20,459 bases of DNA from a virus. The position numbers and the translations under genes are program-made. Under the pieces are notes generated by a model. That model saw only the letters and a program-made list of their open reading frames with translations, did not search any database and was not told the DNA's origin. The first letter of the stretch is position 1; each line of letters begins with the position of its first letter. Below are positions 4,480-19,847 of this stretch, in pieces. The stretch is taken from the IMG/VR virus record IMGVR_UViG_3300023174_000755, positions 1 through 20,459 of that record; one strand, 5' to 3'.

Positions 4480-4491
4480 TTTGCATTAGTA
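4480..4491 (+). promoter_or_regulatory. Phage promoter-like motif, copy 1 (primase)
   Basis: TTTGCATTAGTA, one of six identical copies on the + strand. It is 19 bp before ATG 4511, with GAAAGGAAA between. It lies at the right edge of the candidate origin region. No host -10 box is found 16-18 bp downstream. If TTAGTA marks a -10-like box, the leader would be only about 10 nt. Confidence 0.65.
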
Positions 4492-4510
4492 GGTGTGAAG
4501 AAAGGAAACT

Positions 4511-6823
4511 ATGACAGATAAACCAATTTGCTTACCCGTGCAGTTCGCCACGATACCACTGGAATTGAAACGCATTCCTAGGTGGGTACTGTGGCGCCTT
4601 GTCGAGGTAGGCGACGAGGGTAACAAGAGGTGGTCTAAACTGCCAACGCAGGTAACGGGACAACCCGCCTCGTCGACCAACCCCGCGACGTGGACAGACT
4701 TCCCGTCAGTCCAACACGCCTACGAGGAAGACCCCGAGAAGTTTGCAGGTATCGGGTTCGTCTTCACATCGGAAGACAACCTCATCGGCGTGGATTTGGA
4801 CGACTGCTTTGACCACACCACCGCGCGTTTCACAAATGCTGCACTGCAACATATCTCCGACGAGCTCGAGGGCTACCACGAGGTCTCACCCAGTGGCACC
4901 GGCATCAAGATATTCACGCGCGCCGATTTAGCGCACGCCCACGTCGACCACTCACAGGGGCTGGAGATCTACCCACAGGGTCGGTTCTTCACAGTTACCG
5001 GTCACTACCTAGGCGGGACAATACCAACCGAGGCGCAGGATCTCTCGGCGTTCATCCCCGAGCGTGCACTGCACGTGACAGGCGACGCGTTCGCGGACTA
5101 CGTGCCACCAGTGGAAGGCTACGACCTGCACCGAGTTGAGATGGAGCTACTATCCAAGCTCGACCCCGACTGCGGGTACACAGACTGGATGGGCGTTGGG
5201 TTCGCGCTTTTCCACCAGTTTGGTGGGGACGTAGAGGCATGTGAGTTGTGGGATCGGTGGAGCTCGCAGTCCGGCAAGTACGCATCAAACGGCATGAATA
5301 GCTGTGAGAGTAAGTGGCGCACGTTCAAGAGTGGTGGCGCGACTCTACGGAGCATCATCTTCAAGGTCAATCAGAAAGAGAGGGCGGATGCGCTCGCTCG
5401 GGGCGAGATAGTACTCGACTCGGGCGCGATGAATCACGCACGTACCTTTCTCGACGCGCTCTACTCCAGCGAGGAGGGCTACCGGTTAGTGCACTACGCG
5501 GAAGACTTTTTTATACACGCCGGCACACACTACGAGATCATTGAGGAGGCAACGATACGCTCGAAGTTATACGCGTTCCTTGATAAGTGTAAGAAACCGG
5601 CCAAGGGTGGTGCCTTGGCGCCGTTTAATCCATCACCGGCCAGTGTATCGGGCGCCATGGACGCGATTAAGTCAATCGTGCACCTTGCAAACCAACCCAA
5701 CACCAAGCCACCGATTTGGTTTGAAGAGTATCAGGCAAATAAACCTGACGCGTCGAAGTTGATCAGCGTCAAGAACGGCCTCTTTCACCTAGAGGACAAG
5801 ATCTTACTGCCACACTCGCTCGGGTTCTTTACACAGCACTCGCTACCATTTAAGTACGACCAAGGCGCGACCTGCCCGCAGTGGGACGCGTTTTTACAGT
5901 CGATATGGGAGGATGATCAGGAGTCGATCGACACACTGCAGGAGATCTTCGGCTACATTCTGTCGGGAGACACGAGACAGCAGAAGTTTTTTAACGTAAT
6001 TGGTCCGCGACGTAGCGGTAAGGGTACGATCAACAAGGTACTCGTATCACTATTTGGACAGCACAACACCGTCGCGCCACAACTAGAGGAGCTCTGTGAT
6101 ACATTTGGCCTACAACCATGGCTTGGAAAACCCCTTGCCTCATTTACTGACGCTCGTGCACCTGAGCGTAATCGTAGCGCTGTCGTTAGCCAGTTGTTGC
6201 GTATTGTGGGTGGTGATACTGTCACCGTTAATCGCAAAAATAAAGAGGCATGGTCGGGCTATCTGCCGACGCGTATTATCGTATACTCGAACGAGGCGTT
6301 GCAATTAACAGAAAACAGTAACGCGCTCACCGGACGTATGTTGGTGCTCAAGATGCACAAGTCATTCTATAACAACGAAGACACCGACCTGTTTAATAAG
6401 CTATCCGGCGAGTTGGCCGGTATCTTTAACTGGGCAATGCAGGGCCTCGATCGCAGACTAGCGCGTGGCGGGCACTTCATTCAACCAAAGTCAGGCCGTC
6501 AGTTGTTGCTGTTGATGGAGCAGTTGGGCAACCCACTGAACTCATTCGTGGAGGACACGTTTGTGTTTGACCCCGTGGCGCAGGTTAAGAAGGACGACGT
6601 ATTCCTATGTTGGAAACGGTGGGCACTTAAACGTAGCCTACCGCCAGGATCTGAGATGTCGTTCAAGCGCAGGTTCTTGGCCGCGACACAGGAGAAACGC
6701 ATTGAGGCAGGTGAGAATCGCACCGACGGAGACCGCACCCCGATCTACTTGGGACTACGGTTTAACACATCGGCCGGCGAGTATTTAAAATCAGTTGAGA
6801 CATTTGAAACGGAAGGATATTGA
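4511..6823 (+). CDS. Replicative primase-helicase (PrimPol + SF3 helicase)
   Basis: A 770-residue protein that should prime and unwind phage DNA at the replication fork. Residues 20-170 resemble the archaeo-eukaryotic primase/PrimPol fold of phage NrS-1-type polymerases: RWVLW, NPATWTDF, IGFVFTSEDNLIGVDLDDCF with catalytic Asp95 and Asp97, then SPSGTGIKIF (126-135) and LEIYPQGRFFTVTG. Residues 205-285 match the PriCT-2 linker (YTDWMGVGFALFHQFGGD, WSSQSGKY, CESKWRTF). The C-terminal half is a D5/P4-type superfamily 3 helicase with Walker A GPRRSGKGT at 498-506, an acidic motif B near SFTDARAPE and a sensor region IIVYSNEAL...GRMLVLKM. It is first after the candidate origin and carries a phage promoter-like motif. 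Start supported by GAAAGGA at 4499-4505. Length fits the family. Confidence 0.92.
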   Translation: MTDKPICLPVQFATIPLELKRIPRWVLWRLVEVGDEGNKRWSKLPTQVTGQPASSTNPATWTDFPSVQHAYEEDPEKFAGIGFVFTSEDNLIGVDLDDCFDHTTARFTNAALQHISDELEGYHEVSPSGTGIKIFTRADLAHAHVDHSQGLEIYPQGRFFTVTGHYLGGTIPTEAQDLSAFIPERALHVTGDAFADYVPPVEGYDLHRVEMELLSKLDPDCGYTDWMGVGFALFHQFGGDVEACELWDRWSSQSGKYASNGMNSCESKWRTFKSGGATLRSIIFKVNQKERADALARGEIVLDSGAMNHARTFLDALYSSEEGYRLVHYAEDFFIHAGTHYEIIEEATIRSKLYAFLDKCKKPAKGGALAPFNPSPASVSGAMDAIKSIVHLANQPNTKPPIWFEEYQANKPDASKLISVKNGLFHLEDKILLPHSLGFFTQHSLPFKYDQGATCPQWDAFLQSIWEDDQESIDTLQEIFGYILSGDTRQQKFFNVIGPRRSGKGTINKVLVSLFGQHNTVAPQLEELCDTFGLQPWLGKPLASFTDARAPERNRSAVVSQLLRIVGGDTVTVNRKNKEAWSGYLPTRIIVYSNEALQLTENSNALTGRMLVLKMHKSFYNNEDTDLFNKLSGELAGIFNWAMQGLDRRLARGGHFIQPKSGRQLLLLMEQLGNPLNSFVEDTFVFDPVAQVKKDDVFLCWKRWALKRSLPPGSEMSFKRRFLAATQEKRIEAGENRTDGDRTPIYLGLRFNTSAGEYLKSVETFETEGY

Positions 6824-6969
6824 TGGACAACAAAGATGAGTTGATGTTTTTTGCAGGGCTCGCATTGATGGGTCTAGTTGCGCGCGGAGAGGCACCAAGC
6901 TCCGCGTCTCAACAGGCGTGGCAATACGCTGAGTTTATGTTAAACCACAAGCCCGATGAAAAAGTTTAA
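6823..6969 (+). CDS. Small phage protein, unknown
   Basis: A 48-residue ORF with its ATG overlapping the primase TGA (TGATG) and GGAAGGA at 6811-6817. Translation begins MDNKDELMFFAGLALMGLVA and continues SASQQAWQYAEFMLNHKPDEKV. The FAGLALMGL segment is hydrophobic but short and Gly-rich, so it may be a helix of a soluble protein. Known role: none that I can name. The end overlaps the next gene by 14 nt. Confidence 0.6.
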   Translation: MDNKDELMFFAGLALMGLVARGEAPSSASQQAWQYAEFMLNHKPDEKV

Positions 6970-7204
6970 TTTTCGTAGAACCACCCTGCGCAATGGTTTC
7001 ACTGAAATCTTTGGCGGGGTGGGTAACCGACGCATTGTTTTCATTCACAAAGACGGAAAGCCAAGTCATTACAAACGCACTCACATGCAGATGTACCGCA
7101 GGGCCTCGCAGGGGTGGCGCAACCAAACATACGGGCGTTTGTGTGCACTAAAACTGTATGTAAGATTTGGCAAACGTAAACCATCGAGGAGGTTTGGATT
7201 ATGA
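6956..7204 (+). CDS. Small highly basic phage protein
   Basis: An 82-residue, strongly basic protein (Lys/Arg throughout, for example MKKFNFRRTTLRNGF, HKDGKPSHYKRTHMQMYRRA, RFGKRKPSRRFG). Net charge suggests nucleic-acid binding. No zinc-binding or HTH pattern is obvious. The ATG overlaps the end of the preceding ORF and its TGA overlaps the next ATG (ATGA at 7201-7204). The ribosome binding signal is weak, consistent with coupling. Confidence 0.65.
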   Translation: MKKFNFRRTTLRNGFTEIFGGVGNRRIVFIHKDGKPSHYKRTHMQMYRRASQGWRNQTYGRLCALKLYVRFGKRKPSRRFGL

Positions 7205-7533
7205 ATACACCCGACAGGTGGGTGGTAGTCGAGGTAATAGCTGGTGACACGCACCTCTACCGCGTGTTTGGGTGCTGGTATGGCGGGTACGCCGGATCAG
7301 ATTCGTGGCAGATGAATAGTGGCATCGTGGGCGTAGACGAGGAGAAACAATACTACGACTTTCACGGCGCCTCGGGGTCTGTGTACCGGTGCTACAAACA
7401 CAATTACGGCACACACCTGTACGGCACATCGGTGCTTAATAATTTGATCGCCAAGGCAAAGGAGCAGGGCACCACGATCAACATCATGCCGGAAGAAACA
7501 AACTGGAAGGAGTTAGTATGTACCGCACAGTGA
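7201..7533 (+). CDS. Phage hypothetical protein
   Basis: A 110-residue ORF with GAGGAGG at 7186-7192. Aromatic-rich first half (DRWVVVEVIAGDTHLYRVFG, WYGGYAGSDSWQMNSGI) followed by YYDFHGASGSVYRCYKHNYG and a helical end. The pattern of DRWVV, WxGGYxGxDSW and SGS-Y-C resembles an unassigned protein frequent in phage genomes; I know no characterised member. No membrane segment. Confidence 0.75.
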   Translation: MNTPDRWVVVEVIAGDTHLYRVFGCWYGGYAGSDSWQMNSGIVGVDEEKQYYDFHGASGSVYRCYKHNYGTHLYGTSVLNNLIAKAKEQGTTINIMPEETNWKELVCTAQ

Positions 7534-7676
7534 AAGAGTATGAGGAAGCAGTTAACCGCACGCCAATGACCGACGAAGAGATCCGCGTAATGATTATCAA
7601 TATGAATAAGACCAACCAAATGTGGAGCATGCGCGACTTTGTCAGAACAGTTGAAGAACATCATGGGATAAAATAA
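7518..7676 (+). CDS. Small protein with shared DEEI...HGIK tail
   Basis: A 52-residue ORF starting in the end of the previous gene (16-nt overlap), with AAGGAG at 7507-7512. The C-terminal half, PMTDEEIRVMIINMN then MRDFVRTVEEHHGIK, is related to the tails of the proteins at 7906 and 8304 (DEEI or NEEI followed about 20 residues later by FARAIERRHGIK). This looks like a small helical module used several times in this cluster. Function unknown. Confidence 0.65.
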   Translation: MYRTVKEYEEAVNRTPMTDEEIRVMIINMNKTNQMWSMRDFVRTVEEHHGIK

Positions 7677-7909
7677 TGAAACGCAAAATGATTGACCCGC
7701 CGAGCGGCTGGAAGTATGGCTTTCCAAAAGAAATCCCCGAGCACATCGACAACACCCTGCAGTGGCTCATTGAGAACGGCTATCCGGAACAGGAGATCAA
7801 ACGATTGGGCGACAGTTTTTATGTGCGTGGGTGGTGGGAAGAAAAGCACGAGTACGAGGTATGTAGTTTAGAAGAGGCCGAAGAGTTTGCAAAGAAGAGG
7901 AACAAATGA
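7676..7909 (+). CDS. Phage hypothetical protein (YGFPK type)
   Basis: A 77-residue ORF in TAATG overlap with the previous gene. It begins MKRKMIDPPSGWKYGFPKEI, continues LQWLIENGYPEQEIKRLG and ends with an acidic-basic helix. The PPSGW-YGFPK opening and WLIENGYP motif are familiar from unassigned phage proteins; I cannot give a function. Its stop overlaps the next start (ATGA). Confidence 0.7.
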   Translation: MKRKMIDPPSGWKYGFPKEIPEHIDNTLQWLIENGYPEQEIKRLGDSFYVRGWWEEKHEYEVCSLEEAEEFAKKRNK

Positions 7910-8307
7910 ACGCATACGAATTAGCAGACTTAATGTTTGATGTAACAGACTGCGAAACTAGCGAATATTATCAAGCAGGAATGATGCTACGCCAACAAGC
8001 AGACCGCATAGCGGAGTTGGAGAAAGCATTTATTAGTCAAAGGGTAGAAGCGTATGCTAAAAGCCTTACCGATAGAACTAAAGCAAGTGCCATAGCTAAA
8101 GTATTAAATGCTAAACCAAAAGATATTTGGACTGTTTGCTTGGATTGTGGCAAAAGGGTTACAGGGGATTCCATTCATACTTGTTCACCTCAAATAAAAG
8201 AGTTAAGTGATGAGGAAATAATGAATTTGTATAAAGAAACCAAAGCTGATAATGGTGGGATTAGGGAATTTGCTAGAGCAATACTAAAGAAAGCGAGTGA
8301 AAAGTGA
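7906..8307 (+). CDS. Phage protein with CxxC zinc-like motif
   Basis: A 133-residue ORF coupled by ATGA, with GAGGAA at 7897-7902. Residues 20-50 look coiled-coil (MMLRQQADRIAELEKAF). A CLDCGKRVTGDSIHTC segment (about residues 80-95) could bind zinc through three Cys and a His. The tail, LSDEEIMNLYKETK ... IREFARAILKKASEK, is related to the proteins at 7518 and 8304. The middle is much more AT-rich than neighbouring genes (codons such as AAA, GCT, TTA dominate), suggesting recent acquisition. Function unknown. Confidence 0.75.
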   Translation: MNAYELADLMFDVTDCETSEYYQAGMMLRQQADRIAELEKAFISQRVEAYAKSLTDRTKASAIAKVLNAKPKDIWTVCLDCGKRVTGDSIHTCSPQIKELSDEEIMNLYKETKADNGGIREFARAILKKASEK

Positions 8308-8906: not shown

Positions 8907-9460
8907 TGAAAAAATACGACTACTACAAACTAGACGTCGGTTTTTATCCAGACGTGATGAAAGTATGCTTTTCAAACACTGTATTCCAGCGAATCCTAAA
9001 AGACCACAAGGTCACGATGAAGGCCGAGGCCTTGGACATCGGCGTCGCAGAGACGCACCTAATCGGTGACGGGCAGGACGCGTTGGTTATCCTCGTGTTT
9101 AACTTGGAGGCACTCACCGACGGCATCGACGAGGTAATCGGCGCGATTGCGCACGAGGTTAGCCACGCAATTGATCACTTGGCAGAATACATTGGGGAAG
9201 ATGATGGCATCAAGGGGGAGACGCGCGCCTATCTTAGCGAGTCACTGGTACGACAATTGTTTAAGATAACGATGGCGGAGAAAAACAATAATGCTAGAAA
9301 AGCAGATCGAAAAATATCTCGTAAAAAAAGTAACCCAAAGCAAGGGGCTAACGTTCAAGTGGATATCCACAGTGACGGGGGTGCCGGATCGAATAGTGTT
9401 TCTGAACAATCAGGTCCACTTGGTGGAGCTAAAGACGGAAACCGGCCACCTATCGCCTAG
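8906..9460 (+). CDS. HExxH metallopeptidase-like phage protein
   Basis: A 184-residue ORF. Residues 80-110 contain HEVSHAIDH (His83, Glu84, His87), the HExxH zinc-peptidase motif, followed by GETRAYLSE, where Glu105 is a good third zinc ligand. This arrangement fits the zincin-type phage proteins often called putative metallopeptidases; substrate unknown, cytoplasmic because no signal peptide is visible. After about residue 126 the sequence becomes low-complexity, basic then Gly/Ser-rich, exactly where the VRR-NUC gene begins in another frame (170-nt overlap). The true functional end may therefore be near residue 126, with the rest being run-on after loss of a stop. Family call moderate, catalysis unproven. 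Confidence 0.75.
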   Translation: MKKYDYYKLDVGFYPDVMKVCFSNTVFQRILKDHKVTMKAEALDIGVAETHLIGDGQDALVILVFNLEALTDGIDEVIGAIAHEVSHAIDHLAEYIGEDDGIKGETRAYLSESLVRQLFKITMAEKNNNARKADRKISRKKSNPKQGANVQVDIHSDGGAGSNSVSEQSGPLGGAKDGNRPPIA

Positions 9461-9560
9461 GCAGGTCTTAGTGTTTGACCAGCTAGGCGAGGCTGGCTTT
9501 CCGGTACACATACTGCGCAGTTACGAAGACATTGAGGAATTTTTAAAAAATGCAAACTAA
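9291..9560 (+). CDS. VRR-NUC domain nuclease
   Basis: An 89-residue stand-alone VRR-NUC protein of the PD-(D/E)xK nuclease superfamily. Visible motifs: FKWISTVTGVPDRIVF (GVPDR at 30-34, giving the catalytic Asp), VHLVELKTETG (Glu-x-Lys at 46-48) and HLSPRQVLVFDQLGEAGFPV with the conserved Gln. Such phage proteins are structure-specific or Holliday-junction-type nucleases acting in replication or recombination, and commonly sit next to an SNF2 helicase as here. ATG 9291 lies inside the preceding metallopeptidase ORF; GGAG at 9277-9280 provides a ribosome binding site. The 3' end overlaps the HNH gene by 11 nt. Length matches single-domain phage members. Confidence 0.88.
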   Translation: MLEKQIEKYLVKKVTQSKGLTFKWISTVTGVPDRIVFLNNQVHLVELKTETGHLSPRQVLVFDQLGEAGFPVHILRSYEDIEEFLKNAN

Positions 9561-10065
9561 AAAATTAGCGCATATAAAAAAATATTACGATAACGCACGC
9601 AGTCGAGCCAAAGCATTTAATTTACCATTTAATTTAACAGTGCCCCACCTCGTATCAATTGCACACGATGAATGCCCGATATTTAAAACCCCGTTAACTT
9701 GGGGAGTATCAAAAATGGGTAAAGGCAAAAGACGACGAGACACACCACAGTTAGACCGCATTATTCCTGAACTGGGATATGTAATTGGTAACGTCGCCTT
9801 TCTATCCGGCAAGGCAAACAAAATGAAAGATAACGGAACAATGCAAGAGCATTACGCAATTGCTGACTGGATATGGGAACATACACATGCTAAAGAGAAA
9901 TCAGTTACACCAGTATCAATTATCAATGATCGAAAAAGCCAAAATAACTCAAAATATAGCGTTATTCATGGAACCCGGTCTTGGGAAGACAGCAACGACG
10001 CTAACGATTATCGCGGAGCAGTTCAAGGGGAAAACTCTTATCGTAGCGCCAAAGAGGGTAGCTGA
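9550..10065 (+). CDS. HNH-type endonuclease overlapping the helicase start
   Basis: A 171-residue ORF. Residues 1-111 resemble phage HNH/homing-type endonucleases: a helical DNA-binding start (IKKYYDNARSRAKAFNLPFN), HDECPIFKTPLTWG, then PQLDRIIPELGYVIGNVAFL and SGKANKMKDNGT. The LDRI-GY-GNV-AN-K pattern is diagnostic. The recognisable fold ends about residue 111, and from residue 113 onward the DNA also encodes the N-terminus of the SNF2 helicase in another frame. The last 59 residues are therefore probably run-on without function. The gene is more AT-rich than the flanks. It probably is a mobile endonuclease inserted between VRR-NUC and helicase. Confidence 0.8.
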   Translation: MQTKKLAHIKKYYDNARSRAKAFNLPFNLTVPHLVSIAHDECPIFKTPLTWGVSKMGKGKRRRDTPQLDRIIPELGYVIGNVAFLSGKANKMKDNGTMQEHYAIADWIWEHTHAKEKSVTPVSIINDRKSQNNSKYSVIHGTRSWEDSNDANDYRGAVQGENSYRSAKEGS

Positions 10066-11227
10066 AACAGTATGGGACACGGAGGCCAAAAAATGGGAAC
10101 ACCTAAAAAATTTAAAGATAGCAAAGATACTCGGAACACCGAGTCAACGGTTGACAGCGTTGAAGAGTTCTTCGAACGTGTACGTAGTCAATCTCGAGAA
10201 CTTGATATGGTTGTTGGATCAACCGTCAATGCAATTCAACAATCTGATAATCGACGAGTCGAGTCGCTTCAAAGATCCTTCGACAAAAAGATTCAAGACC
10301 TTGAAAAAACACTTAAAGAGCTTCGAGAGGCGTATTATTCTGACAGGCACCCCTACCCCCCAGGGGATGAGTGATCTCTGGTCCCAGGTGGGTATATTGG
10401 ACTTAGGGAGCCGTTTAGAGACGTCCCTGACCCGGTTCAGAGATAAGTACATGGAGCCGGACCAAGTCAACCGCCATACACGGGTGGTATATAGCTGGAG
10501 GATAAAGAAAGGTATGGACAAAGTAATTCAGGACAAGATCGCGGACATTTGTTTTAGTCTAAAGGCCGAGGATTATTTGACACTACCAAAATTAACCAAA
10601 CTGTATCACAAAGTAGACATAACCACCGCAGAGCGTAAACAATATGACACACTTAAAAAAGACATGGTATCCGAAATTGAGGGAGAGACAATCACTGCCC
10701 CTACTGCGGCCGCGCTTGCAGGTAAACTCCTGCAATTTACCAGCGGGGCAATTTATTCCGAGGACGGTGAGTGGCACGAAATCCACTCGTCTAAATTGGA
10801 ATTTCTTGAGTCGATCTTGGAGGAGTCCTCGTCCCCGACACTTGTCTTCTATCACTTCAAACATTCATTACAGCGTCTTCGACTCAAATTTCCGGAGGCT
10901 GTCGTGCTTGATGATTCCAACATACAAGCGTGGCGTGATGGTAAGATCAGAGTTATGCTGGCGCATCCGCAATCTGGAGGCATCGGCATTAACCTCCAGT
11001 GTAATGTTGGAGAGACAGCGCAGACCGTCTGGTATGACCTGCCGTGGAGTTCAGAGAACTACATTCAGGCAAACGCACGAATCTACCGCCAAGGCCAAGA
11101 GAAACCTGTCATTATCCACCACCTAGCCGTATCTAACAGCATTGACGAGCAGGTAATTAAGGTATTAGACGGAAAAATAAATTTGCAAGATGCCCTGTTA
11201 AACGCCCTAAATTTTGCATTAGTATAA
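9887..11227 (+). CDS. SNF2-family DEAD-like helicase
   Basis: A 446-residue superfamily 2 helicase of the phage SNF2 type. From ATG 9887 the protein begins MLKRNQLHQYQLSMIEKA, the expected Q-like start. Motif I is EPGLGKT (29-35), motif II is IIDESSRFKD (DESS in place of DEAH, at 123-126), motif III is LTGTPTPQG, and motifs V-VI are GGIGINLQC and QANARIYRQGQEKPV. It likely moves along or remodels DNA in replication/recombination with the neighbouring VRR-NUC nuclease. An in-frame ATG at 9860 is possible but adds no conserved residues. The first 179 nt overlap the HNH gene, and the last codons (FALV and stop) lie in the promoter-like motif at 11213-11224. Confidence 0.92.
   Translation: MLKRNQLHQYQLSMIEKAKITQNIALFMEPGLGKTATTLTIIAEQFKGKTLIVAPKRVAETVWDTEAKKWEHLKNLKIAKILGTPSQRLTALKSSSNVYVVNLENLIWLLDQPSMQFNNLIIDESSRFKDPSTKRFKTLKKHLKSFERRIILTGTPTPQGMSDLWSQVGILDLGSRLETSLTRFRDKYMEPDQVNRHTRVVYSWRIKKGMDKVIQDKIADICFSLKAEDYLTLPKLTKLYHKVDITTAERKQYDTLKKDMVSEIEGETITAPTAAALAGKLLQFTSGAIYSEDGEWHEIHSSKLEFLESILEESSSPTLVFYHFKHSLQRLRLKFPEAVVLDDSNIQAWRDGKIRVMLAHPQSGGIGINLQCNVGETAQTVWYDLPWSSENYIQANARIYRQGQEKPVIIHHLAVSNSIDEQVIKVLDGKINLQDALLNALNFALV
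11213..11224 (+). promoter_or_regulatory. Phage promoter-like motif, copy 2 (region-4-like gene)
   Basis: TTTGCATTAGTA followed by TAAT, so the extended motif contains a perfect TATAAT at 11223-11228. It overlaps the stop of the helicase and ends only 9 bp before ATG 11234. If TATAAT acts as the -10 box, transcription would begin at about the start codon and the next gene would be leaderless; no ribosome binding site is visible there. Confidence 0.65.
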
Positions 11228-11233
11228 TTACGT

Positions 11234-11545
11234 ATGAAGAAAATCACAATATACAAAATTAGCGCAACAGCCCCGCGACTCAGCGATGAGGATCCGGACC
11301 CAATCGAACAGGATGAGAGCGAGGGCATCTCCTCAAATATCATTGAGGGGTGGTTACCTTGGGATCCTGAAGATATTTCTGACATACGTCGACTGATCTC
11401 AGATAAGTTGCCGCCTAAGCAACAGTTTATTATCGAGTCATTTTTAGACGGCATGACGTACACAGACGTATGTGTAACAGAAAAATACTGGCGCTATCAT
11501 TTTGCTAAGGGCATTGAACTTATTAGGAAGGAACTAAAGCTATGA
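11234..11545 (+). CDS. Sigma region 4-like DNA-binding protein
   Basis: A 103-residue protein. The first 45 residues are acidic and probably disordered. Residues 47-100 resemble sigma-70 region 4: a first helix DISDIRRLISDKLPPKQQFI corresponding to 4.1, then FLDGMTYTDVCVTEKYWRYH and AKGIELIRKEL as the helix-turn-helix of 4.2. This is the part missing from the sigma-like protein at 3055. Region 4 normally binds the -35 element and the RNA polymerase beta flap. The gene has a copy of the repeated promoter-like motif at its start, so it might be made in a feed-forward step. Alternatives are an ArpU/RinA-type phage activator or a generic HTH regulator. HTH call good; pairing with the 3055 protein is inference. 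Confidence 0.7.
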   Translation: MKKITIYKISATAPRLSDEDPDPIEQDESEGISSNIIEGWLPWDPEDISDIRRLISDKLPPKQQFIIESFLDGMTYTDVCVTEKYWRYHFAKGIELIRKELKL

Positions 11546-12813: not shown

Positions 12814-13015
12814 AGATTTGTTAGACCGGGCCGGTATCCGTAACGATATAGACAAGGCACTGGCGGACAAAGAGGCGGCCAAGGAGAAGCAGATCCAGGA
12901 AATGGCCGGGGCAGTAACCCGCCTAATCATCAACGAGTCAATTAAAGAGGCCAAGGCTCGCGCTGCAGAGCGTGACAGGCTATTAATTAACCCGGATGGG
13001 GCGGAAAAGAAGTAG
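12803..13015 (+). CDS. Small charged helical protein
   Basis: A 70-residue ORF starting at ATG 12803; a TTG start at 12785 is also in frame but sits only 3 nt after its purine-rich box. Almost entirely helical and charged (RNDIDKALADKEAAKEKQIQ, SIKEAKARAAERDRLLI). Ends directly before the promoter-like motif at 13018. Function unknown; ribosome binding signal weak, so coupled translation is likely. Confidence 0.6.
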   Translation: MKLKDLLDRAGIRNDIDKALADKEAAKEKQIQEMAGAVTRLIINESIKEAKARAAERDRLLINPDGAEKK

Positions 13016-13017: not shown

Positions 13018-13029
13018 TTTGCATTAGTA
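13018..13029 (+). promoter_or_regulatory. Phage promoter-like motif, copy 3
   Basis: TTTGCATTAGTA, three bases after the stop of the preceding gene and 73 bp before ATG 13103. The downstream leader contains a small GC hairpin (TCGGG-AGACA-CCCGA, 13050-13064). Confidence 0.65.
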
Positions 13030-13102: not shown

Positions 13103-13360
13103 ATGAACCCTTTTGAATTACGATATGATTTACTCAAGACCTCCAAGGAGTTCTTAACCGAGCAGTACAACGCCCAGTTAAAGGCGTGGGAAGTGGCAGA
13201 CGAGGCAGGTAAAAAACTGCTCGAAAACGCGCCCAAGTTCCCCACAATGCACGAGATCATTGACAACGCCGTGGAGATGAACAAGTTCATCAGCACCACG
13301 ATCGAGGCACAATTGGTCGACGGCGTTAAGCGCTTTAATCGTATCACAGCAGTATTTTAA
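13103..13360 (+). CDS. Phage hypothetical protein, own promoter motif
   Basis: An 85-residue ORF with GGAG at 13092-13095 and a dedicated leader. It begins MNPFELRYDLLKTSKEFLTE and is largely helical (QYNAQLKAWEVADEAGKKLL, MHEIIDNAVEMNKFISTTIE). The MNPFELR opening is familiar from unassigned proteins of marine T4-like phages, but I cannot name a function. It is the only gene between the copy-3 motif and a terminator at 13366, so it may be a monocistronic, strongly made product. Confidence 0.75.
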   Translation: MNPFELRYDLLKTSKEFLTEQYNAQLKAWEVADEAGKKLLENAPKFPTMHEIIDNAVEMNKFISTTIEAQLVDGVKRFNRITAVF

Positions 13361-13615: not shown

Positions 13616-13760
13616 ACCTGGCCTCTATGCCAACATCCAAAAAAAGCGTGAACGTATCAAGCAGGGATCCGGCGAGAAGATGCGCAAGCCTGGTGACCCC
13701 GGCGCGCCTACATCCAAGGCATTTAAAGATTCTGCAAAGACCGCTAAAAAACCAAAATGA
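13593..13760 (+). CDS. Small basic conserved phage protein (KPGLYANI type)
   Basis: A 55-residue basic protein (43 to 51 if started at ATG 13605). Sequence features KPGLYANIQKKRERIKQGSG, EKMRKPGDPGAPTSKAFKDS and AKTAKKPK. I recall near-identical small proteins (KPGLYANIHAKRKRI, GSGE-MRKPG, GAPT, SAKTAK) in many marine podo- and myoviruses, usually close to packaging or structural genes; the role is not established. No good ribosome binding site is near ATG 13593, but GGAG sits in the loop of the hairpin described at 13552-13602. The stop overlaps the terminase-like gene (ATGA). Confidence 0.8.
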   Translation: MGYSMAAKPGLYANIQKKRERIKQGSGEKMRKPGDPGAPTSKAFKDSAKTAKKPK

Positions 13761-14149
13761 CCACAAAGAAATCAACAGCTAAAAAATTATTTACTAAGGA
13801 GATGGCAGACACGCTATTAGATCTTGGTAAGCAAGGCGCGTCCCAAAAATCCATGTATGCAGCAATTGGTATTAGCAAAGCCACCGCGGCTAAATGGAAA
13901 CAGGAAGACCCGCATTTTGCTGAGACCATGGACCTAGCCACGACCTACGGGCAGAGCTTTTGGGAAATGATGCTGTTGGCTAATATTGATAACAAAAATT
14001 TTAACTCCAGAGTAGCCGAGATTGCACTACGCGGCCAGTATCCTGATGATTACAAAGACAATCGAGAGATCAAGGCAAACATCAAGCAAGAGGTGGTGGT
14101 AGATTTCAATAAAGAGGTTCAAGATTTAATACGGGCATTAAAAAGTTAG
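13757..14149 (+). CDS. Terminase small subunit-like protein
   Basis: A 130-residue protein. Residues 15-55 form a helix-turn-helix (MADTLLDLGKQGASQKSMYA, AIGISKATAAKWKQEDPHF), the type used to recognise packaging sites. Residues 60-130, with WEMMLLANIDNKNFNSRVAE, ALRGQYPDDYKDNREIKANI and a C-terminal VVDFNKEVQDLIRALK, match the small terminase/DNA-packaging families of tailed phages, where the tail contacts the large subunit. Its partner, the large terminase, is not in the window; downstream come an HNH gene and replication genes instead. Function in genome packaging is a good inference; a general HTH regulator is possible. Confidence 0.75.
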   Translation: MTTKKSTAKKLFTKEMADTLLDLGKQGASQKSMYAAIGISKATAAKWKQEDPHFAETMDLATTYGQSFWEMMLLANIDNKNFNSRVAEIALRGQYPDDYKDNREIKANIKQEVVVDFNKEVQDLIRALKS

Positions 14150-14236: not shown

Positions 14237-14785
14237 ATGAAGCAGTGCAAAACTTGTACTATTGAAAAACCATTATCAGAATATAGTAAAAAAGGAAACG
14301 GAATACAACCGTCTTGTAAAAGTTGCTGTAAAGCATATATAAGGGATTACTATGCTAAAAATAAAAGTAGTTGGATTAAATATGCAAATAAAAAGAAACA
14401 ATGGGCAATAGCTAATCCAGAGGAAGCAAAACTAGAAAATAAAAAACGTTATGCTGTAAGGGCGGAAAAACAAAAAGCTCAAAAAAAAGCAGAATATACC
14501 CCAGAACTTGGAAGAGCTCGAAATTTATTTAGTAAGTATAAAATAACTGTTGATGAATTTGAAACATTAAAACTATCACAAAACAATTGTTGTGCAATTT
14601 GTCATGTTTCTTTAGTTAATGAAAATAAACCAAATATCGACCACGATCATAAAACTGGTAAAATACGTGGTATTTTATGTAATTTATGCAATCCGGGTTT
14701 GGGCATGTTTAAAGATTCCATTGAAAATTTAAAATCCGCCGTAAAGTACTTAAAAAAATATTCCGTAGATTCTGTCAAAAAATAG
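14237..14785 (+). CDS. Endonuclease VII-like HNH nuclease
   Basis: A 182-residue protein. Two zinc modules are visible: CKTC (4-7) with CKSC (27-30), and CCAIC (118-122) with CNLC (148-151). The catalytic part is NIDHDHKTGKIRGILCNLCN (DHDH at 135-138), the signature of recombination endonuclease VII (T4 gp49-like) of the His-Me finger/HNH group. The C-terminus, GLGMFKDSIENLKSAVKYLK, also fits. The gene is far more AT-rich than flanking genes, has its own leader, and sits between the terminase-like gene and the DUF2800 gene, so it is probably a mobile or recently acquired endonuclease. Junction resolution is the main alternative role. Start supported by AAGGGG at 14223-14228. Confidence 0.88.
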   Translation: MKQCKTCTIEKPLSEYSKKGNGIQPSCKSCCKAYIRDYYAKNKSSWIKYANKKKQWAIANPEEAKLENKKRYAVRAEKQKAQKKAEYTPELGRARNLFSKYKITVDEFETLKLSQNNCCAICHVSLVNENKPNIDHDHKTGKIRGILCNLCNPGLGMFKDSIENLKSAVKYLKKYSVDSVKK

Positions 14786-14792
14786 CTAAAAG

Positions 14793-14804
14793 TTTGCATT
14801 AGTA
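14793..14804 (+). promoter_or_regulatory. Phage promoter-like motif, copy 4 (DUF2800)
   Basis: TTTGCATTAGTA, 7 bp after the stop of the HNH gene and 31 bp before ATG 14836. AAAGA precedes the start codon. Its position suggests the HNH gene was inserted upstream of an existing promoter. Confidence 0.65.
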
Positions 14805-14835
14805 GTAATAGACTAAACTGAATTGAAAGAATAAG

Positions 14836-15969
14836 ATGACCGCACACGCTCTTTTAAGCGCCTCGGGATCTAAGCGATGGCTAACATGTACGCCAAGCGC
14901 CAGACTAGAGGCAACACTCCCCGAACCAAAGAAAAATTCAGATGCGTTTGATTTTAGCCAGGAGGGCACCACTGCCCACACACTAGCTGAGATAAAGCTC
15001 CGCCAACATTTTCAACAAATTGGAACCGAGGAATATGAAACAGAATACAACGCAGTTAAAAGCACACCCTACTACAACGACGATTTCGAGGCTAACGTCG
15101 ATAATTACGTTCTATATGTGCGTAGTCAGATCGGTGAGGGTGATACCCCGCTCTTTGAGCAACGTGTGGACTTTAGCGACTGGGTGCCTGATGGATTTGG
15201 TACGGCCGATGTGGTTATACTTTCTAAGCACACCATTCGCGTCATCGACCTCAAGTTTGGAAAAGGTGTGCCTGTCTCAGCGATCGATAACACCCAGCTA
15301 CGACTATATGCGCTGGGTGCTTATTCCAAGTTTAAAGAAGAGTATCCGGACATCAAAGAGGTATCCTACACGATCCACCAGCCTCGCCTGGACAGTATCA
15401 GTACTGACGGCACCACCGTTAATAAACTCATAGACTGGGCCAATTATTTTGTTAAACCTAAAGCAAAAAAAGCATGGAGCGGATCTGGTGAGTTTATTCC
15501 AGGTGACCACTGTCAGTTCTGTCGTGCTAAGGCACAGTGCCGCGCCCGCTCTGATTTCAATACAGAGCTAGCCAAGCAGGAGTTTAAGGACCCGCCACTG
15601 TTAGATGACGAGGAACTAGCCAACGTGTTAGCCAAGGCGCAGGACCTACGGACCTGGGTAGCGGACGTTGAAGAGTACGCGCTCGATAAGGCAGTCAACG
15701 AGAACAAACTACCAAACGGATTTAAGTTATCGACCACGGTAACGCACCGCAAGATCACCGACCAGCTACTAGCGGTTGAGGTATTAAAAGAAAAGGGCGT
15801 GCCAGAAGAACAGCTCTGGGAGGCACCAAAGCTCAAGTCAATCGCGACACTAGAAAAGCTAAGACCAAAGGGTCAAGTTGTGGCGTGGTTAGGTGAGCTA
15901 GTCCAGCGACCAGAGGGGTCACCCAAATTGGTCCGCGTCCAAGAGACCGCGTCGGAGGACTTTAAATGA
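14836..15969 (+). CDS. DUF2800 PD-(D/E)xK nuclease (Cas4/AddB-like)
   Basis: A 377-residue protein matching DUF2800, a phage exonuclease-like family. It starts AHALLSASGSKRWLTCTPSA with Cys18, then EGTTAHTLAE. The nuclease core is DGFGTADVVIL (Asp125), TIRVIDLKFGKG (Asp138, Lys140) and NTQLRLYALGAY with Gln154. Near residues 225-235, HCQFCRAKAQCRAR gives Cys226, Cys229 and Cys235, which with Cys18 could form the iron-sulfur cluster known in Cas4 and AddB nucleases. Expected role: DNA end processing for recombination or replication. In many phages this gene is followed by DUF2815 and DNA polymerase, as here. No close ribosome binding site other than GAAAGA at 14825-14830. Confidence 0.9.
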   Translation: MTAHALLSASGSKRWLTCTPSARLEATLPEPKKNSDAFDFSQEGTTAHTLAEIKLRQHFQQIGTEEYETEYNAVKSTPYYNDDFEANVDNYVLYVRSQIGEGDTPLFEQRVDFSDWVPDGFGTADVVILSKHTIRVIDLKFGKGVPVSAIDNTQLRLYALGAYSKFKEEYPDIKEVSYTIHQPRLDSISTDGTTVNKLIDWANYFVKPKAKKAWSGSGEFIPGDHCQFCRAKAQCRARSDFNTELAKQEFKDPPLLDDEELANVLAKAQDLRTWVADVEEYALDKAVNENKLPNGFKLSTTVTHRKITDQLLAVEVLKEKGVPEEQLWEAPKLKSIATLEKLRPKGQVVAWLGELVQRPEGSPKLVRVQETASEDFK

Positions 15970-16109: not shown

Positions 16110-16110
16110 A

Positions 16111-16368
16111 ATGAAGGTAAAATTTTACGGTGCGGAGTTTGATATCCCGGACCTAATGATTGACAAGTTTATAAAAGATTTTGATGGACTACCCGGGCGT
16201 GGTTTTCGCCAAGAAGTTAATATGCTCCGCGACTCAATCGGCAACATATTTGACGTGGTGGCAGAAGATCCTGAGATACTACACGAGCCAGAGTATTTAT
16301 CTGACTTTATTCAGGCGATGGCAATGAAGAAAGCGATGGAGAGACATGGAATATTCTACGACGCATGA
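16111..16368 (+). CDS. Phage hypothetical protein
   Basis: An 85-residue protein starting at ATG 16111, one base after the upstream stop. Acidic, with VKFYGAEFDIPDLMIDKFIK at the N-terminus and a helical C-terminal half (VNMLRDSIGNIFDVV, FIQAMAMKKAMERHGI). The in-frame reading from 16063 would overlap the membrane-protein gene and has no ribosome binding site. The 3' end overlaps the next ORF by 23 nt. No family recognised. Confidence 0.65.
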   Translation: MKVKFYGAEFDIPDLMIDKFIKDFDGLPGRGFRQEVNMLRDSIGNIFDVVAEDPEILHEPEYLSDFIQAMAMKKAMERHGIFYDA

Positions 16369-16492
16369 AGAGAAGTTATCACAAGAAGAGCTGTCAAAAA
16401 TGCAAATGTCCCAAGAACAAACCCTTGCAGATTATTACAGAAGACGCTTGGAATATTGGGATTATCGTATTGTGAAAAATATAAATGAATAA
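16346..16492 (+). CDS. Small helical protein, unknown
   Basis: A 48-residue ORF starting inside the previous gene, with GGAG at 16338-16341. Gln/Glu-rich helix (EEKLSQEELSKMQMSQEQTL) followed by an aromatic-basic end (YYRRRLEYWDYRIVKNINE). Its stop is immediately followed by the promoter-like motif at 16494. Probable but unassigned. Confidence 0.55.
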   Translation: MEYSTTHEEKLSQEELSKMQMSQEQTLADYYRRRLEYWDYRIVKNINE

Positions 16493-16493
16493 G

Positions 16494-16505
16494 TTTGCAT
16501 TAGTA
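16494..16505 (+). promoter_or_regulatory. Phage promoter-like motif, copy 5 (DUF2815)
   Basis: TTTGCATTAGTA followed by TATTT, so the extended motif reads TAGTATATT. It starts 1 bp after the preceding stop and is 67 bp before ATG 16573. The leader contains a 7-bp hairpin. Confidence 0.65.
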
Positions 16506-16524
16506 TATTTAGCAAAGGGTAGAC

Positions 16525-16551
16525 GAACTGGCCCCTATTGAAGTCCAGTTC
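16525..16551 (+). promoter_or_regulatory. Leader hairpin of DUF2815 gene
   Basis: GAACTGG (16525-16531) and CCAGTTC (16545-16551) form a perfect 7-bp stem with a 13-nt loop in the leader between motif copy 5 and the ribosome binding site AAGGA (16562-16566). There is no T-run. It could stabilise the transcript or serve as a binding site for the ssDNA/RNA-binding product of the gene. Confidence 0.5.
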
Positions 16552-16572
16552 TACAGTTATAAAGGAATCAAA

Positions 16573-17094
16573 ATGGCTCAAGCCACTACTAAAGTAAAAG
16601 TTGTAACAGGTAAAGTTCGTTTCTCGTATGCGAACGTATTCCAACCCGCCTCCTCAATCGAGGGTGGCACACCGAAGTACTCCGTATCAATCATCATCCC
16701 CAAGTCTGACAAGGACACCATCGCACGTCTCCAGAAAGCATTTGAAGAGACCAAGGCCGCGGCATCTGCGTACTTCGGTGGCGCAGTACCCAAAAACTTA
16801 AAGGGTGGCCTGCGTGATGGCGACGCGGAGAAGGACGACCCAGCGTACGCTAATAGCTACTTTATCAATGCAAACTCGGCACAAAAGCCGGGCGTTGTAG
16901 ATCAAGATCTTAACCCGATCATTGACACAAGTGAGTTCTACAGCGGGTGCTATGGTCGCGCATCAATCACGTTCTACCCATACAATGCTCAGGGATCTAA
17001 GGGCATCGCATGTGGATTAAACAACGTCCAGAAGTTAGAGGACGGTGAGAAGTTAGGCGGTAGCACAACAGCAGCAGCCGACTTCGCAGTTTAA
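16573..17094 (+). CDS. DUF2815 single-stranded DNA-binding-like protein
   Basis: A 173-residue protein matching DUF2815, thought to be a phage ssDNA-binding protein of OB-fold type. Features: VKVVTGKVRFSYANVFQPAS, KYSVSIIIPKSDKDTIARLQ, GLRDGDAEKDDPAYANSYFI, FYSGCYGRASITFYPYNAQG and GIACGLNNVQKLEDGEKLGG. The glycine-acidic C-terminal part could contact other replication proteins as in T7 gp2.5-type proteins. Neighbours DUF2800 nuclease and DNA polymerase form the usual module. It has its own promoter-like motif, a structured leader and AAGGA, and is followed by a terminator, so high expression is likely. Confidence 0.9.
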   Translation: MAQATTKVKVVTGKVRFSYANVFQPASSIEGGTPKYSVSIIIPKSDKDTIARLQKAFEETKAAASAYFGGAVPKNLKGGLRDGDAEKDDPAYANSYFINANSAQKPGVVDQDLNPIIDTSEFYSGCYGRASITFYPYNAQGSKGIACGLNNVQKLEDGEKLGGSTTAAADFAV

Positions 17095-17238
17095 GTTTTA
17101 CGGGGGCAAAAGGGTGAGCGCCGGCGTGTAGGCTCTTTCATGGATCACGCCACCCCCACCAATTAGTAGTGCAAGGGAGTGTCCGTAGAAACTACGGCCT
17201 CCCTTTTTCATCAACCCATATAACATAGAGAACAATAA
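17095..17238 (+). promoter_or_regulatory. Structured leader before ribonucleotide reductase
   Basis: A 144-bp gene-free stretch. GGCGTG (17123-17128) can pair with CACGCC (17146-17151) around a 17-nt loop, flanked by G-rich (17101-17116) and C-rich (17150-17159) tracts. The terminator hairpin follows. No copy of TTTGCATTAGTA is present, and no B12-box consensus of cobalamin riboswitches is visible, although the next enzyme uses adenosylcobalamin. A weak TATAAC at 17219-17224 lacks a matching -35. Confidence 0.35.
17173..17208 (+). terminator. Intrinsic terminator after DUF2815
   Basis: AAGGGAG (17173-17179) pairs with CTCCCTT (17199-17205) and CCGTAG (17183-17188) with CTACGG (17192-17197) around an AAA loop; TGT faces one C in an internal bulge. 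TTTTT (17204-17208) follows. It should end most transcripts coming through the DUF2815 gene, so downstream ribonucleotide reductase depends on read-through or an unseen promoter. Confidence 0.75.
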
Positions 17239-19113
17239 ATGGATCAGTACCAAGAATACATTGCCGCCAGTAGATACGCCCGCTTTCAAGATGACAAGCA
17301 ACGCCGAGAGACCTGGGCCGAGACAGTAGATCGCTACGTAGATTATATTTTTAGTAGAACACCGGCAATAAAAGATAAGACAGAATTACGAAATGAAATT
17401 TTTGATGCTATCCATAACCTAGATTTGATGCCGTCCATGCGCGCCATGATGACGGCAGGAAAGAGTGCCGATCGTGATAACACCTGTGTCTATAATTGCT
17501 CGTATCTCCCAGTGGATGACCCCAAATCGTTTGATGAGGCAATGTTCATATTGCTCTGCGGTACAGGAGTCGGGTTTTCGGTGGAGGCTAAATACATATC
17601 CAATCTGCCAGAAGTGCCTGAAAAACTATTTGACTCCGAGCACACCATCGTCGTCCACGACTCCAAAGAAGGATGGGCAAAATCACTCCGCCTGCTTATT
17701 GCAAATCTCTACGCAGGCGAGATCCCTAAGTGGGACGTCTCTTCCATCAGACCTGCCGGAGCAAGACTCAAAACATTTGGCGGAAGAGCTTCAGGGCCGG
17801 AACCATTAGTCGACCTGTTTAAGTTTACTGTAGCTACATTTAAACACGCGGCCGGACGTCGTCTGCATTCGTTAGAGTGCCACGATCTGATGTGTAAAAT
17901 TGGTGAGGTAGTTGTCGTGGGTGGCGTGCGCCGCTCGGCAATGATCTCGTTGTCTGACCTTGATGATGAAAGGATTCGTCATGCTAAAGCTGGACCCTGG
18001 TGGGAGACTGCACCTCACCGTGCGCTCGCCAATAATAGCGCGGTGTATAATGAGACTCCTACCGTTGGAAAGTTTATGGAAGAGTGGGTATCTTTATACA
18101 ATTCACACAGCGGAGAGCGTGGCATATTTAACCGTGAGGCTGCCAAGAATACCGTTGCTAAGTACGGACACCGTGATCCTAACTTTGAGTTCGGAACTAA
18201 CCCCTGCTCAGAAATTATTCTTCGGCCCTACCAATTTTGTAACCTTACGGAGGCAGTGGTAAGACATGACGACACTGAGGAAACGCTTCTTAGAAAGGTA
18301 CGAATCGCTTCGATTCTTGGCACAATCCAGGCCACTTTTACAAAGTTTCCGTATCTGCGCAAAGTGTGGCAACGTAACACCGAGGAAGAGAGATTGTTGG
18401 GAGTGTCGCTTACAGGCATTTACGACAACCCTCTACTAACAACACAAGGAGATAAATTAAATGGGTTACTATCACGACTTAGAGAGGAAGCTCGAAGAGC
18501 CAATGAGGAATACGCAGCTCTGCTCGGAATACCTAAGAGTGCTGCGATCACTTGCGTTAAACCATCCGGAACCGTCAGTCAACTTGTTGATAGCGCATCT
18601 GGAATACACCCAAGACATAGTAAGTTCTATATCCGCAGAGTTAGAGGCGATAAAAAAGACCCTCTTACACAGTTCTTAATTCAACAAGGGATCCCCAATG
18701 AGCCATGTGTTTACAAACCTGATCAAACGATTGTGTTCAGTTTTCCACAAAAAGCCCCAGCAGGAATCACAAGATCCGACGTCACACCAATTAGTCACTT
18801 GGCCCTTTGGCTCACCTACCAGCAACACTGGTGCGAGCACAAACCGTCGGTCACGATCTCCGTCGAAGAAAAAGACTGGCCAACAGTCGGCGCGTGGACC
18901 TGGGAAAACTTCAGCGAAATCTCAGGGGTCTCGTACCTCCCGTACGACGGCGGCACCTATCGACAAGCCCCTTATTCCGAGTGTACGGAAGAAGAGTACA
19001 ACGAGCTCAAAGCCAAAGTCCCCACAATCAACTGGGAAGACTTCAAAGAAGTGACAGACAACGTGGAAGGTGCCCAACAACTTGCTTGCAGTGCGGGCGT
19101 TTGCGAAATCTAA
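17239..19113 (+). CDS. Class II (B12-dependent) ribonucleotide reductase
   Basis: A 624-residue enzyme reducing ribonucleotides to deoxyribonucleotides with adenosylcobalamin, resembling the monomeric RTPR type. Active-site elements: NCSYL (Cys87, redox partner), LLCGTGVGFS, GTNPCSEIIL (Asn321, thiyl-radical Cys323, Glu325) and FCNLTEAV (Cys334, second redox Cys). KPSGTVSQLVDSASGIHPRH is the phosphate/substrate loop. The C-terminal ACSAGVCEI (Cys617, Cys622) is the shuttle pair that accepts electrons from thioredoxin. About 110 residues shorter than the Lactobacillus enzyme, so part of the regulatory insertion may be missing. All catalytic cysteines are present. It supplies dNTPs for phage replication. 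Start ATG 17239 has only weak GAGA at 17227-17230. The stop overlaps the next HNH start. Confidence 0.93.
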   Translation: MDQYQEYIAASRYARFQDDKQRRETWAETVDRYVDYIFSRTPAIKDKTELRNEIFDAIHNLDLMPSMRAMMTAGKSADRDNTCVYNCSYLPVDDPKSFDEAMFILLCGTGVGFSVEAKYISNLPEVPEKLFDSEHTIVVHDSKEGWAKSLRLLIANLYAGEIPKWDVSSIRPAGARLKTFGGRASGPEPLVDLFKFTVATFKHAAGRRLHSLECHDLMCKIGEVVVVGGVRRSAMISLSDLDDERIRHAKAGPWWETAPHRALANNSAVYNETPTVGKFMEEWVSLYNSHSGERGIFNREAAKNTVAKYGHRDPNFEFGTNPCSEIILRPYQFCNLTEAVVRHDDTEETLLRKVRIASILGTIQATFTKFPYLRKVWQRNTEEERLLGVSLTGIYDNPLLTTQGDKLNGLLSRLREEARRANEEYAALLGIPKSAAITCVKPSGTVSQLVDSASGIHPRHSKFYIRRVRGDKKDPLTQFLIQQGIPNEPCVYKPDQTIVFSFPQKAPAGITRSDVTPISHLALWLTYQQHWCEHKPSVTISVEEKDWPTVGAWTWENFSEISGVSYLPYDGGTYRQAPYSECTEEEYNELKAKVPTINWEDFKEVTDNVEGAQQLACSAGVCEI

Positions 19114-19601
19114 TGAAAATCACATTTAATCGGCAATGTGGCTTATGTACCAAAATGCTGCATTATAAGAACCAAAAATCTTATGATGTAGCAATACGAA
19201 AAAATACAATATGTCCGTCTTGCAGAGCAGAGAAAAGCAACAAGTCCCCAAACCGGAATGCCAAGGGGACTAAAAACCCCGCTTGGTGCGGTTATGGTGA
19301 TGTACCGGGAAAAGTACATTCTAAATTAAAAAGAGACTCCATAAAGCGTAATATTGATTTTGAAATAACTATTGAAGAGATTAGCAATCAATACGAAGAT
19401 CAGAATAAATTATGCGCTTTCACCGGCGTTCCCTTAAAGTTTGGAGTAGACGCCTCTGTGGACAGAATTAATAGTGATTTAGGGTATACACCAGATAATA
19501 TTCAAATTGTGCACAAAGATTTAAACATGATGAAGAAAGACATGCCAAATGAAGTATTTGTAGCTTGGTGTAAACTTGTAGCAAATTATGCAAAAGAGTG
19601 A
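19113..19601 (+). CDS. HNH-type endonuclease next to ribonucleotide reductase
   Basis: A 162-residue protein starting in TAATG with the reductase stop; no ribosome binding site is visible, so translation is probably coupled. CGLC (9-12) and CPSC (34-37) make a zinc finger. The HNH-like part is KLCAFTGVPLKFG then SVDRINSDLGYTPDNIQIVH (about 99-133) and LNMMKKDM, the pattern also seen in the 9550 protein (LDRI-GY-GNV). Earlier in-frame starts at 18807 would overlap the reductase gene and are not credible. The gene is AT-rich versus its flanks. Free-standing endonucleases beside reductase and polymerase genes are typical phage homing endonucleases. Confidence 0.85.
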   Translation: MKITFNRQCGLCTKMLHYKNQKSYDVAIRKNTICPSCRAEKSNKSPNRNAKGTKNPAWCGYGDVPGKVHSKLKRDSIKRNIDFEITIEEISNQYEDQNKLCAFTGVPLKFGVDASVDRINSDLGYTPDNIQIVHKDLNMMKKDMPNEVFVAWCKLVANYAKE

Positions 19602-19604
19602 TCC

Positions 19605-19793
19605 ATGGATGTGCCCACCACTCAATCTAAACAATTGGAGTCTGTCTTGGAAGTGGAAAGCCCCTGCACAGGAATCTGCCAGACAGACTTTTTCGATGTT
19701 TGCAAGGGATGTGGTAGGACACTCGAGGAGATATCAGAGTGGCCCTTTCTATCAAATCGCGAAAGACAACAGATAGTTGATCGATTGTTTTAA
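19605..19793 (+). CDS. DUF1289 cysteine-rich protein
   Basis: A 62-residue protein matching DUF1289: SPCTGICQTDFFDVCKGCGR with Cys21, Cys25, Cys33 and Cys36, followed by TLEEISEWPFLSNRERQQIV. The four cysteines could bind zinc or an iron-sulfur cluster. DUF1289 proteins are short and found mostly in Proteobacteria; the function is not established to my knowledge. In a phage it is unusual. It lies after the HNH gene, so before the HNH insertion it may have directly followed the reductase. The overlapping ORF from 19588 in another frame is a shadow. Weak ribosome binding site (AAGAG at 19594-19598). Confidence 0.85.
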   Translation: MDVPTTQSKQLESVLEVESPCTGICQTDFFDVCKGCGRTLEEISEWPFLSNRERQQIVDRLF

Positions 19794-19812
19794 TTTCACA
19801 TGGTGGTGATTT

Positions 19813-19838
19813 GGGGAGCTTCGGCTCCCCTCTTTTTT
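19813..19838 (+). terminator. Strong intrinsic terminator
   Basis: GGGGAGC-TTCG-GCTCCCC (19813-19830), a 7-bp GC stem with a stable UUCG-type tetraloop, then TCTTTTTT (19831-19838). The T-run is continuous with promoter-like motif copy 6. It closes the reductase-HNH-DUF1289 unit. Confidence 0.9.
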
Positions 19839-19847
19839 GCATTAGTA
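19836..19847 (+). promoter_or_regulatory. Phage promoter-like motif, copy 6 (DNA polymerase)
   Basis: TTTGCATTAGTA followed by TACTT, beginning in the T-run of the terminator and 35 bp before ATG 19883. A small CCGA-TACG-TCGG hairpin lies in the leader (19855-19866). A terminator joined directly to this motif is the best positional evidence that the motif starts transcription. Confidence 0.75.

Follow-up and report, generated by a model that had tools for sequence, protein, structure and literature searches.

The motif and its genes in the window

The DNA analysed here, referred to as the window, is the entire IMG/VR viral fragment IMGVR_UViG_3300023174_000755 (20,459 bp), in which a 12-mer, TTTGCATTAGTA, occurs in six exact copies, all on the plus strand and each closely followed by a gene. 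Copy 1 (4480..4491) lies before the primase gene, which begins at 4511. Copy 2 (11213..11224) overlaps the final codons of an SNF2-type helicase gene and precedes the plus-strand gene 11234..11545, which encodes a 103-residue sigma4-like protein. Copy 3 (13018..13029) fronts a packaging operon comprising an open reading frame (ORF) at 13103-13360 and the terminase small subunit gene at 13757-14149 (PHROG match, E=1.8e-7). Copies 4 (14793..14804) and 5 (16494..16505) precede, respectively, a DUF2800/PD-(D/E)XK exonuclease gene (14836-15969) and an SSB/annealing protein gene (16573-17094), while copy 6 (19836..19847) precedes the DNA polymerase gene, which starts at 19883 and extends beyond the window. 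An earlier note made from the sequence had reported these six copies, all of which were found, and had placed each before a replication gene; this holds for five, whose genes are replicative or regulatory, and fails for copy 3 with its packaging operon. It had also given 8-73 bp to the start codon; the proximity stands, with a corrected lower bound (9-73 bp).

The early gene cluster (1-4300) contains no copy, as previously stated, and includes a plus-strand gene without an upstream motif (3055..3627) that encodes a 190-residue protein, here called sigma2-3. The recurrence of the motif is far above chance, also as proposed: when the window is shuffled under a second-order Markov model, 0.003 copies are expected against the six seen, and in none of 300 shuffles did any 12-mer exceed three occurrences. 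No copy with a single mismatch is present in the window; three matches have two mismatches, and each of these is on the minus strand.

Placement and geometry of the motif across relatives

Queries with the SSB, sigma2-3 and sigma4-like proteins retrieved 335, 235 and 474 related stretches, respectively, in viral contigs, and relatives as long as 80 kb were examined in pieces. Ribosome-binding sites and a separate repeat, TGTTTAAACA, overwhelmed a de novo k-mer search near the sigma2-3 loci; anchoring on orthologous sites worked. Placement was counted for 171 core matches in 21 records (that of the window and 20 relatives), in which about 81% of the sequence is coding according to a simple purpose-made gene caller. 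A total of 144 matches lie between genes and are directed at a gene start. The others comprise 13 in-gene sense matches, several of them at the 3′ end of the upstream gene, and 14 in the wrong direction (10 antisense within genes and 4 intergenic). The placement of further copies, which the earlier note had named as informative, is therefore non-random. In three relatives (G003, G006 and G007), the motif precedes replication and structural genes alike, and its strand flips with the two gene arms.

Aligned copies share an anatomy that resembles a bacterial promoter. With the second T of TTTGCATTAGTA numbered 0 and the invariant A of ATTA numbered 4, a T-rich stretch precedes the motif, as had been noticed in the window, and T15 and A16 after it are conserved at 80-95%; this downstream feature is an initiator (Inr)-like TA at motif positions 17-18, 7-8 nt past the -10 element. 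When A4 is taken as the flipped -11 base, position 3 becomes -12 and position 8 becomes -7, so that the core combines an invariant ATTA with proper places for the -12, -11 (A) and -7 bases. The same assignment sets a G-rich box found upstream of some copies 18 bp from the -10 hexamer and A16 8 nt past the hexamer, which is ordinary sigma70 geometry. The register of the box is sharp: [AG]GGGC occurs at exactly -21..-17 in 65/161 sites and 0-2 times in other registers, except for eight matches at +8, where terminator hairpins fall.

Gene starts obey the same frame, with A16 as their nearest limit except for one start called at 6 nt (MTMKK, with a second ATG at 12), which is apparently mis-called. 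Fourteen genes from six families start exactly on A16, so their transcripts would be leaderless. Genes with such predicted leaderless transcripts include the primase gene and the gene downstream of the helicase in G020, the sigma4-like gene in G013-G016, and a gene for a protein beginning ‘MKDF’ in G007, G010 and G013-G015. For the window, the predicted +1 positions are 4497, 11230, 13035, 14810, 16511 and 19853 for copies 1 to 6. The TATAAT-like bases noted after three window copies do not amount to a shared host -10 box, as no TATAAT consensus emerges among 58 distinct clade-A copies. The best-supported interpretation of these features is that the motif serves a phage-specific promoter as its (extended) -10 element. 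At the level of sequence, the comparison of relatives demonstrates the element, its orientation and fixed geometry, its division into two promoter classes, and a parallel change of motif and sigma2-3 protein, the last two of which are described below.

Two sigma-like proteins and two promoter classes

The sigma2-3 protein carries sigma70 regions 1.2, 2 and 3, with Pfam matches to PF00140 (Sigma70_r1_2; 24.6 bits, cut-off 22), PF04542 (Sigma70_r2; 24.6 bits, cut-off 24) and PF04539 (Sigma70_r3; 32.3 bits, cut-off 25.3), together with a match to the PHROG 351 sigma factor family. No Pfam match to region 4 was found in this chain, which stops where region 3.2 would begin. To relate protein to DNA, the motif version of each contig was compared with 97 distinct sigma2-3 proteins, whose residues were aligned to E. 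coli sigma70. Four natural motif versions track sigma2-3 residues: TTTGCATTAGT (53 proteins) accompanies A95, T96, N122 and mostly R107; TTTGCATTATT (8 proteins), P93 and G96; TTTGCATTAAT (5 proteins from two branches), S95 and A/S96; and GCGTATTAGT (23 proteins), E107, K122 and R124. The versions vary at -7 (G, A or T) and in the 5′ half (TTTGC or GCGT).

In sigma70, these positions are expected to be read by residues Q437, T440, H455 and E458 and by the -7 pocket (PMC2613000, PMC5101437, PMC4593229). Sigma2-3 residues 93 and 95 align with K426 and S428 (Taq K249 and S251), which hold the -7 base (PMC5101437). Residues 104 and 107 align with Q437 and T440, which read -12 and, in the mutants Q437H and T440I, tolerate C at that position, and residue 122 aligns with H455, implicated at -14 (PMC2613000). 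Three of the four motif versions have C at -12, and nearly all sigma2-3 members carry K or R at the Q437 position. Among the 190 columns of the protein, column 122 shows the strongest association with the 5′ switch and column 96 with the -7 base, and the predicted contacts are enriched among the top columns (hypergeometric P = 0.003 for the 5′ switch and 0.02 for the -7 base). This co-change is consistent with recognition of the motif by its proposed reader, the sigma2-3 protein.

The second candidate, the sigma4-like protein, has a weak sequence similarity to sigma region 4 and a moderate one in predicted fold. Within its family, PF08281 (Sigma70_r4_2) matches 25/61 members, the best with a weak E value of 0.0023; the window protein itself scores 12.4 bits (E 0.13), below the cut-off of 25.7. 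An AlphaFold model of its C-terminal half reached a predicted local distance difference test score (pLDDT) of ~90, and the best Foldseek matches of the protein were to region 4 of SigR, SigF and SigW, with probabilities of 0.6-0.92 (0.82-0.92 for the top matches), E values of ~0.75 or higher, and template modelling (TM) scores by target of 0.64-0.69. A profile search of the family against PDB gave no meaningful match, and no tblastn match at E 0.01 was obtained in named phages. A putative recognition helix, EKYWRYHF, is near-invariant in the 61 members, and the G-rich box is invariant. On this evidence, the product of 11234-11545 is likely to be a sigma4 protein. A distant homologue (29% identity, with GFTEKKWRYNI) is encoded at 8982-9275 of a clade-B contig (L299) and is possibly a paralogue.

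The box divides the promoters. Its sole instance in the window, GGGGCG (12998..13003, plus strand), lies at the -35 position of copy 3, with a spacing of 18 bp to the beginning of the -10 hexamer. Across relatives, [AG]GGGCG in this position is confined to a late subset: it is present in 18/18 promoters of the ORF13103-terminase small subunit operon and 7/7 of the portal gene, and occurs before other arm-2 virion-region genes (clusters 3 proximal, 8, 9 and 13). It is absent from the promoters of the exonuclease (0/19), SSB (0/18), sigma4-like (0/12) and primase (0/8) genes, and is counted in 1/10 polymerase promoters, where a terminator hairpin mimics it. By sites, the box is found in 1/73 of one class against 51/56 of the other; since the sites are orthologous, the fair comparison is by gene families, with 6/9 against 0/6 (P = 0.028). 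Promoters leading with terminase and those of lysis genes have it mixed or missing. The combined pattern RGGGC-N20-ATTADT matched in 30/30 further records (~117 matches, nearly all reading TGCATTADT; none in the reversed control). The earlier designation as a middle promoter accordingly stands in part, as the motif also fronts structural genes and would serve both middle and late transcription.

Primase and SSB promoters have a palindrome in place of the box. In the window it reads TTTCACATTATGAAA (4449..4463, plus strand), and it lies at a set distance from the motif in the primase and SSB promoters of relatives, where its form TTTCAYANNRTGRAA starts at -32 in 13/13 matches, with its centre near -41 from the predicted start. 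Written as TTTCACATNGTGAAA, it occupies a fixed -32..-18 in these two otherwise unrelated middle promoters (in the window and in relatives such as G020 and G015). This arrangement suggests an operator, or a site for an activator or repressor. At copy 6, the T run of a predicted intrinsic terminator hairpin (19813..19830, plus strand) merges into the motif, so that the upstream RNA would end at the start of the next transcript; in many relatives, hairpins of this kind are found ahead of the exonuclease promoter.

Proposed mechanism, rival explanations and related systems

We consider it highly probable that the motif is the -10 region of promoters used by host RNA polymerase carrying a phage-made split sigma. 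The earlier note had proposed a phage-specific promoter read by a split sigma, and placement, geometry and the co-change of motif and sigma2-3 support it. In the proposed sequence of events, the sigma2-3 protein (3055-3627) would be made early and, on the host polymerase, would read approximately -16 to -7 (TTTGCATTAG: -12 C, -11 A, -7 G), with transcription beginning at the conserved A, 7-8 nt past the -10 element. Promoters with the motif only would drive the middle (replication) genes, including that of the sigma4-like protein (11234-11545), which would then allow the polymerase to use late promoters, equipped with the [AG]GGGCG box, in front of packaging and virion genes. The sigma4-like protein would presumably be the reader of this late -35 box, and the middle-to-late order follows from the same scheme. 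The more specific proposal, which we judge to be evenly poised between right and wrong, is that a sigma factor has been cut in two, each half reading its own element and the halves being made sequentially: early sigma2-3 alone would open middle promoters, and the later sigma4 half would add recognition of the -35 box and thereby late genes, with at least four -10 specificities among the sigma2-3 proteins.

The host enzyme is the likely polymerase at these promoters, as no phage RNA polymerase was found: among 15 relatives, whose genomes are incomplete, there was neither a single-subunit RNA polymerase (PF00940; the T7 positive control was found) nor a beta′ domain. Ten large or marker ORFs of the late arm encode mostly virion or packaging proteins. 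Two related sigma2-3 genes occur in freshwater betaproteobacterial contigs of metagenome-assembled genomes, a weak hint of a betaproteobacterial host.

Several observations weigh against the proposed reading. Columns 26, 18 and 19 of the sigma2-3 alignment associate with the motif versions nearly as well as the predicted contacts, and only four changes of motif version occur on the sigma2-3 tree, so that the residue association partly reflects shared ancestry. The sigma4-like protein has no match above a curated cut-off and no clear helix-turn-helix scaffold helix, and a protein other than this one could read the box. As the genomes are incomplete, an unseen polymerase retains a minor probability. 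In some relatives (L162, L173, L177, L182 and L183), the primase gene has a host-type promoter resembling TATACAAT in place of the phage motif, so that primase may belong to the early genes of one lineage and to the middle genes of another.

Among the alternatives, the most serious retains the sigma2-3 promoter as proposed and makes the sigma4-like protein a DNA-blind co-activator, the box being read by another phage or host protein. T4 gp33, which fills the sigma4 site without recognizing DNA (PMC2988020), provides a precedent, and support for DNA binding in the sigma4-like family is weak; yet in two clades alike the box keeps to the same register, precisely at the -35 position, and the EKYWRYHF helix is near-invariant in all 61 members alongside an invariant box. 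We regard this variant as less likely than not. It is improbable that the motif is instead an operator through which a phage activator or repressor acts on ordinary host sigma70 promoters. Such a site would suit an exact, contiguous 12-mer followed in three copies by TATAAT-like bases, but no TATAAT columns lie downstream in the 58 distinct copies of clade A or in 65 of clade B, and the motif is directional and asymmetric, has an invariant ATTA core, an 18-bp spacing to the box at the -35 position and an Inr, and exists in versions that track sigma residues.

We find it more improbable still that the motif is the promoter of a single-subunit or multisubunit phage RNA polymerase encoded outside the fragment. 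T7-like enzymes typically have contiguous, highly conserved promoters, as here, but the polymerase searches of 15 relatives described above were negative, the large late ORFs tested mostly match virion families, T7-type promoters do without a box at the -35 position at such an 18-bp distance, and the motif co-varies with a sigma protein. The least credible explanation is an RNA element of 5′ leaders, acting in ribosome binding, processing or stability. The motif does always precede genes, at their 5′ ends; however, at the 14 sites in six gene families where the ATG falls on the conserved A, 12 nt after the -11 A, the motif would precede the transcript under any promoter reading, and the upstream box and palindrome at set distances fit DNA recognition. 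On this evidence we rejected a downstream host TATAAT, a T7-like polymerase and an RNA element of the 5′ leader.

Division of sigma function over two polypeptides is known from Bacillus subtilis SigO-RsoA and from SPO1 gp33-gp34, which differ from the phage family described here in proteins, hosts and promoter sequences. The T4 proteins gp55 and gp33 have also been termed a split sigma (PMC2988020), and the present family is most likely, judging from its sequences, a variant of this arrangement with a sigma2-3 half and a -35 box. In T4, gp55 and gp33 act with gp45; here too, the sigma2 and, probably, sigma4 roles would reside in separate proteins, and a contiguous -10-type promoter would be used by the host core enzyme. 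Unlike T4, the first protein retains regions 1.2, 2 and 3, the middle genes share the same -10 element, and dependence on a sliding clamp is not indicated (no clamp gene was sought). A further difference is the fixed box at the -35 position of the late promoters, those of T4 being devoid of any such element (PMC2988020).

A phage sigma is also known from phiEco32 and Salmonella phage 7-11: its conserved short motif, TAATGTATA or a TGATGT core, stands in front of both middle and late genes, and the late ones have an additional element, as in the present family (PMC4331800). That sigma is a single, distantly related protein, in contrast to the two-part sigma proposed here, and its extra late element is a downstream TATA instead of a box at -35; no relatedness was found in the searches made. 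The spacing of -35, extended -10, -10 and start matches that of E. coli sigma70 extended -10 promoters, from which the family differs by -12 C in most versions, by G, A or T at -7 (T in sigma70), and by RGGGCG in place of TTGACA at -35. No published description of this family was found in the open literature, most subscription papers being outside that scope, and megablast against phage genomes gave no match. The portal protein of one relative (L093, 3990-6737) is 48% identical to those of Caulobacter phages RW, KcrB, RLK and GB2A; these named phages that share the portal (Caulobacter phage RW, MW202545) lack the motif, and a sigma of this type was not found in them either. Structural and transcription modules thus seem to differ in history.

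If the scheme holds, it would provide a readable and testable temporal programme for an abundant group of uncultured freshwater phages (several hundred contigs). In the natural series of sigma proteins, the preference at -10, even for the seldom-changed -7 base, shifts with identifiable residues; this series offers a route to understanding promoter reading by sigma and to obtaining orthogonal sigma-promoter pairs. Should the second protein alone read the -35 box, two DNA-reading sigma halves would act as separate switches, unlike in T4.

The separate repeat TGTTTAAACA did not appear among the words that recur in the window; in some relatives (L147, L148, L153, L156, L162 and L211), it lies upstream of up to 11-13 genes and may be another operator. 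The window further contains three genes of Endonuclease VII/HNH type: one at 9550-10065, at the 5′ end of the SNF2-like helicase gene; one at 19125-19601, after the RNR gene and judged from the look of its sequence only; and one at 14237-14785, directly 5′ of the exonuclease promoter, in whose place several relatives have a terminator.

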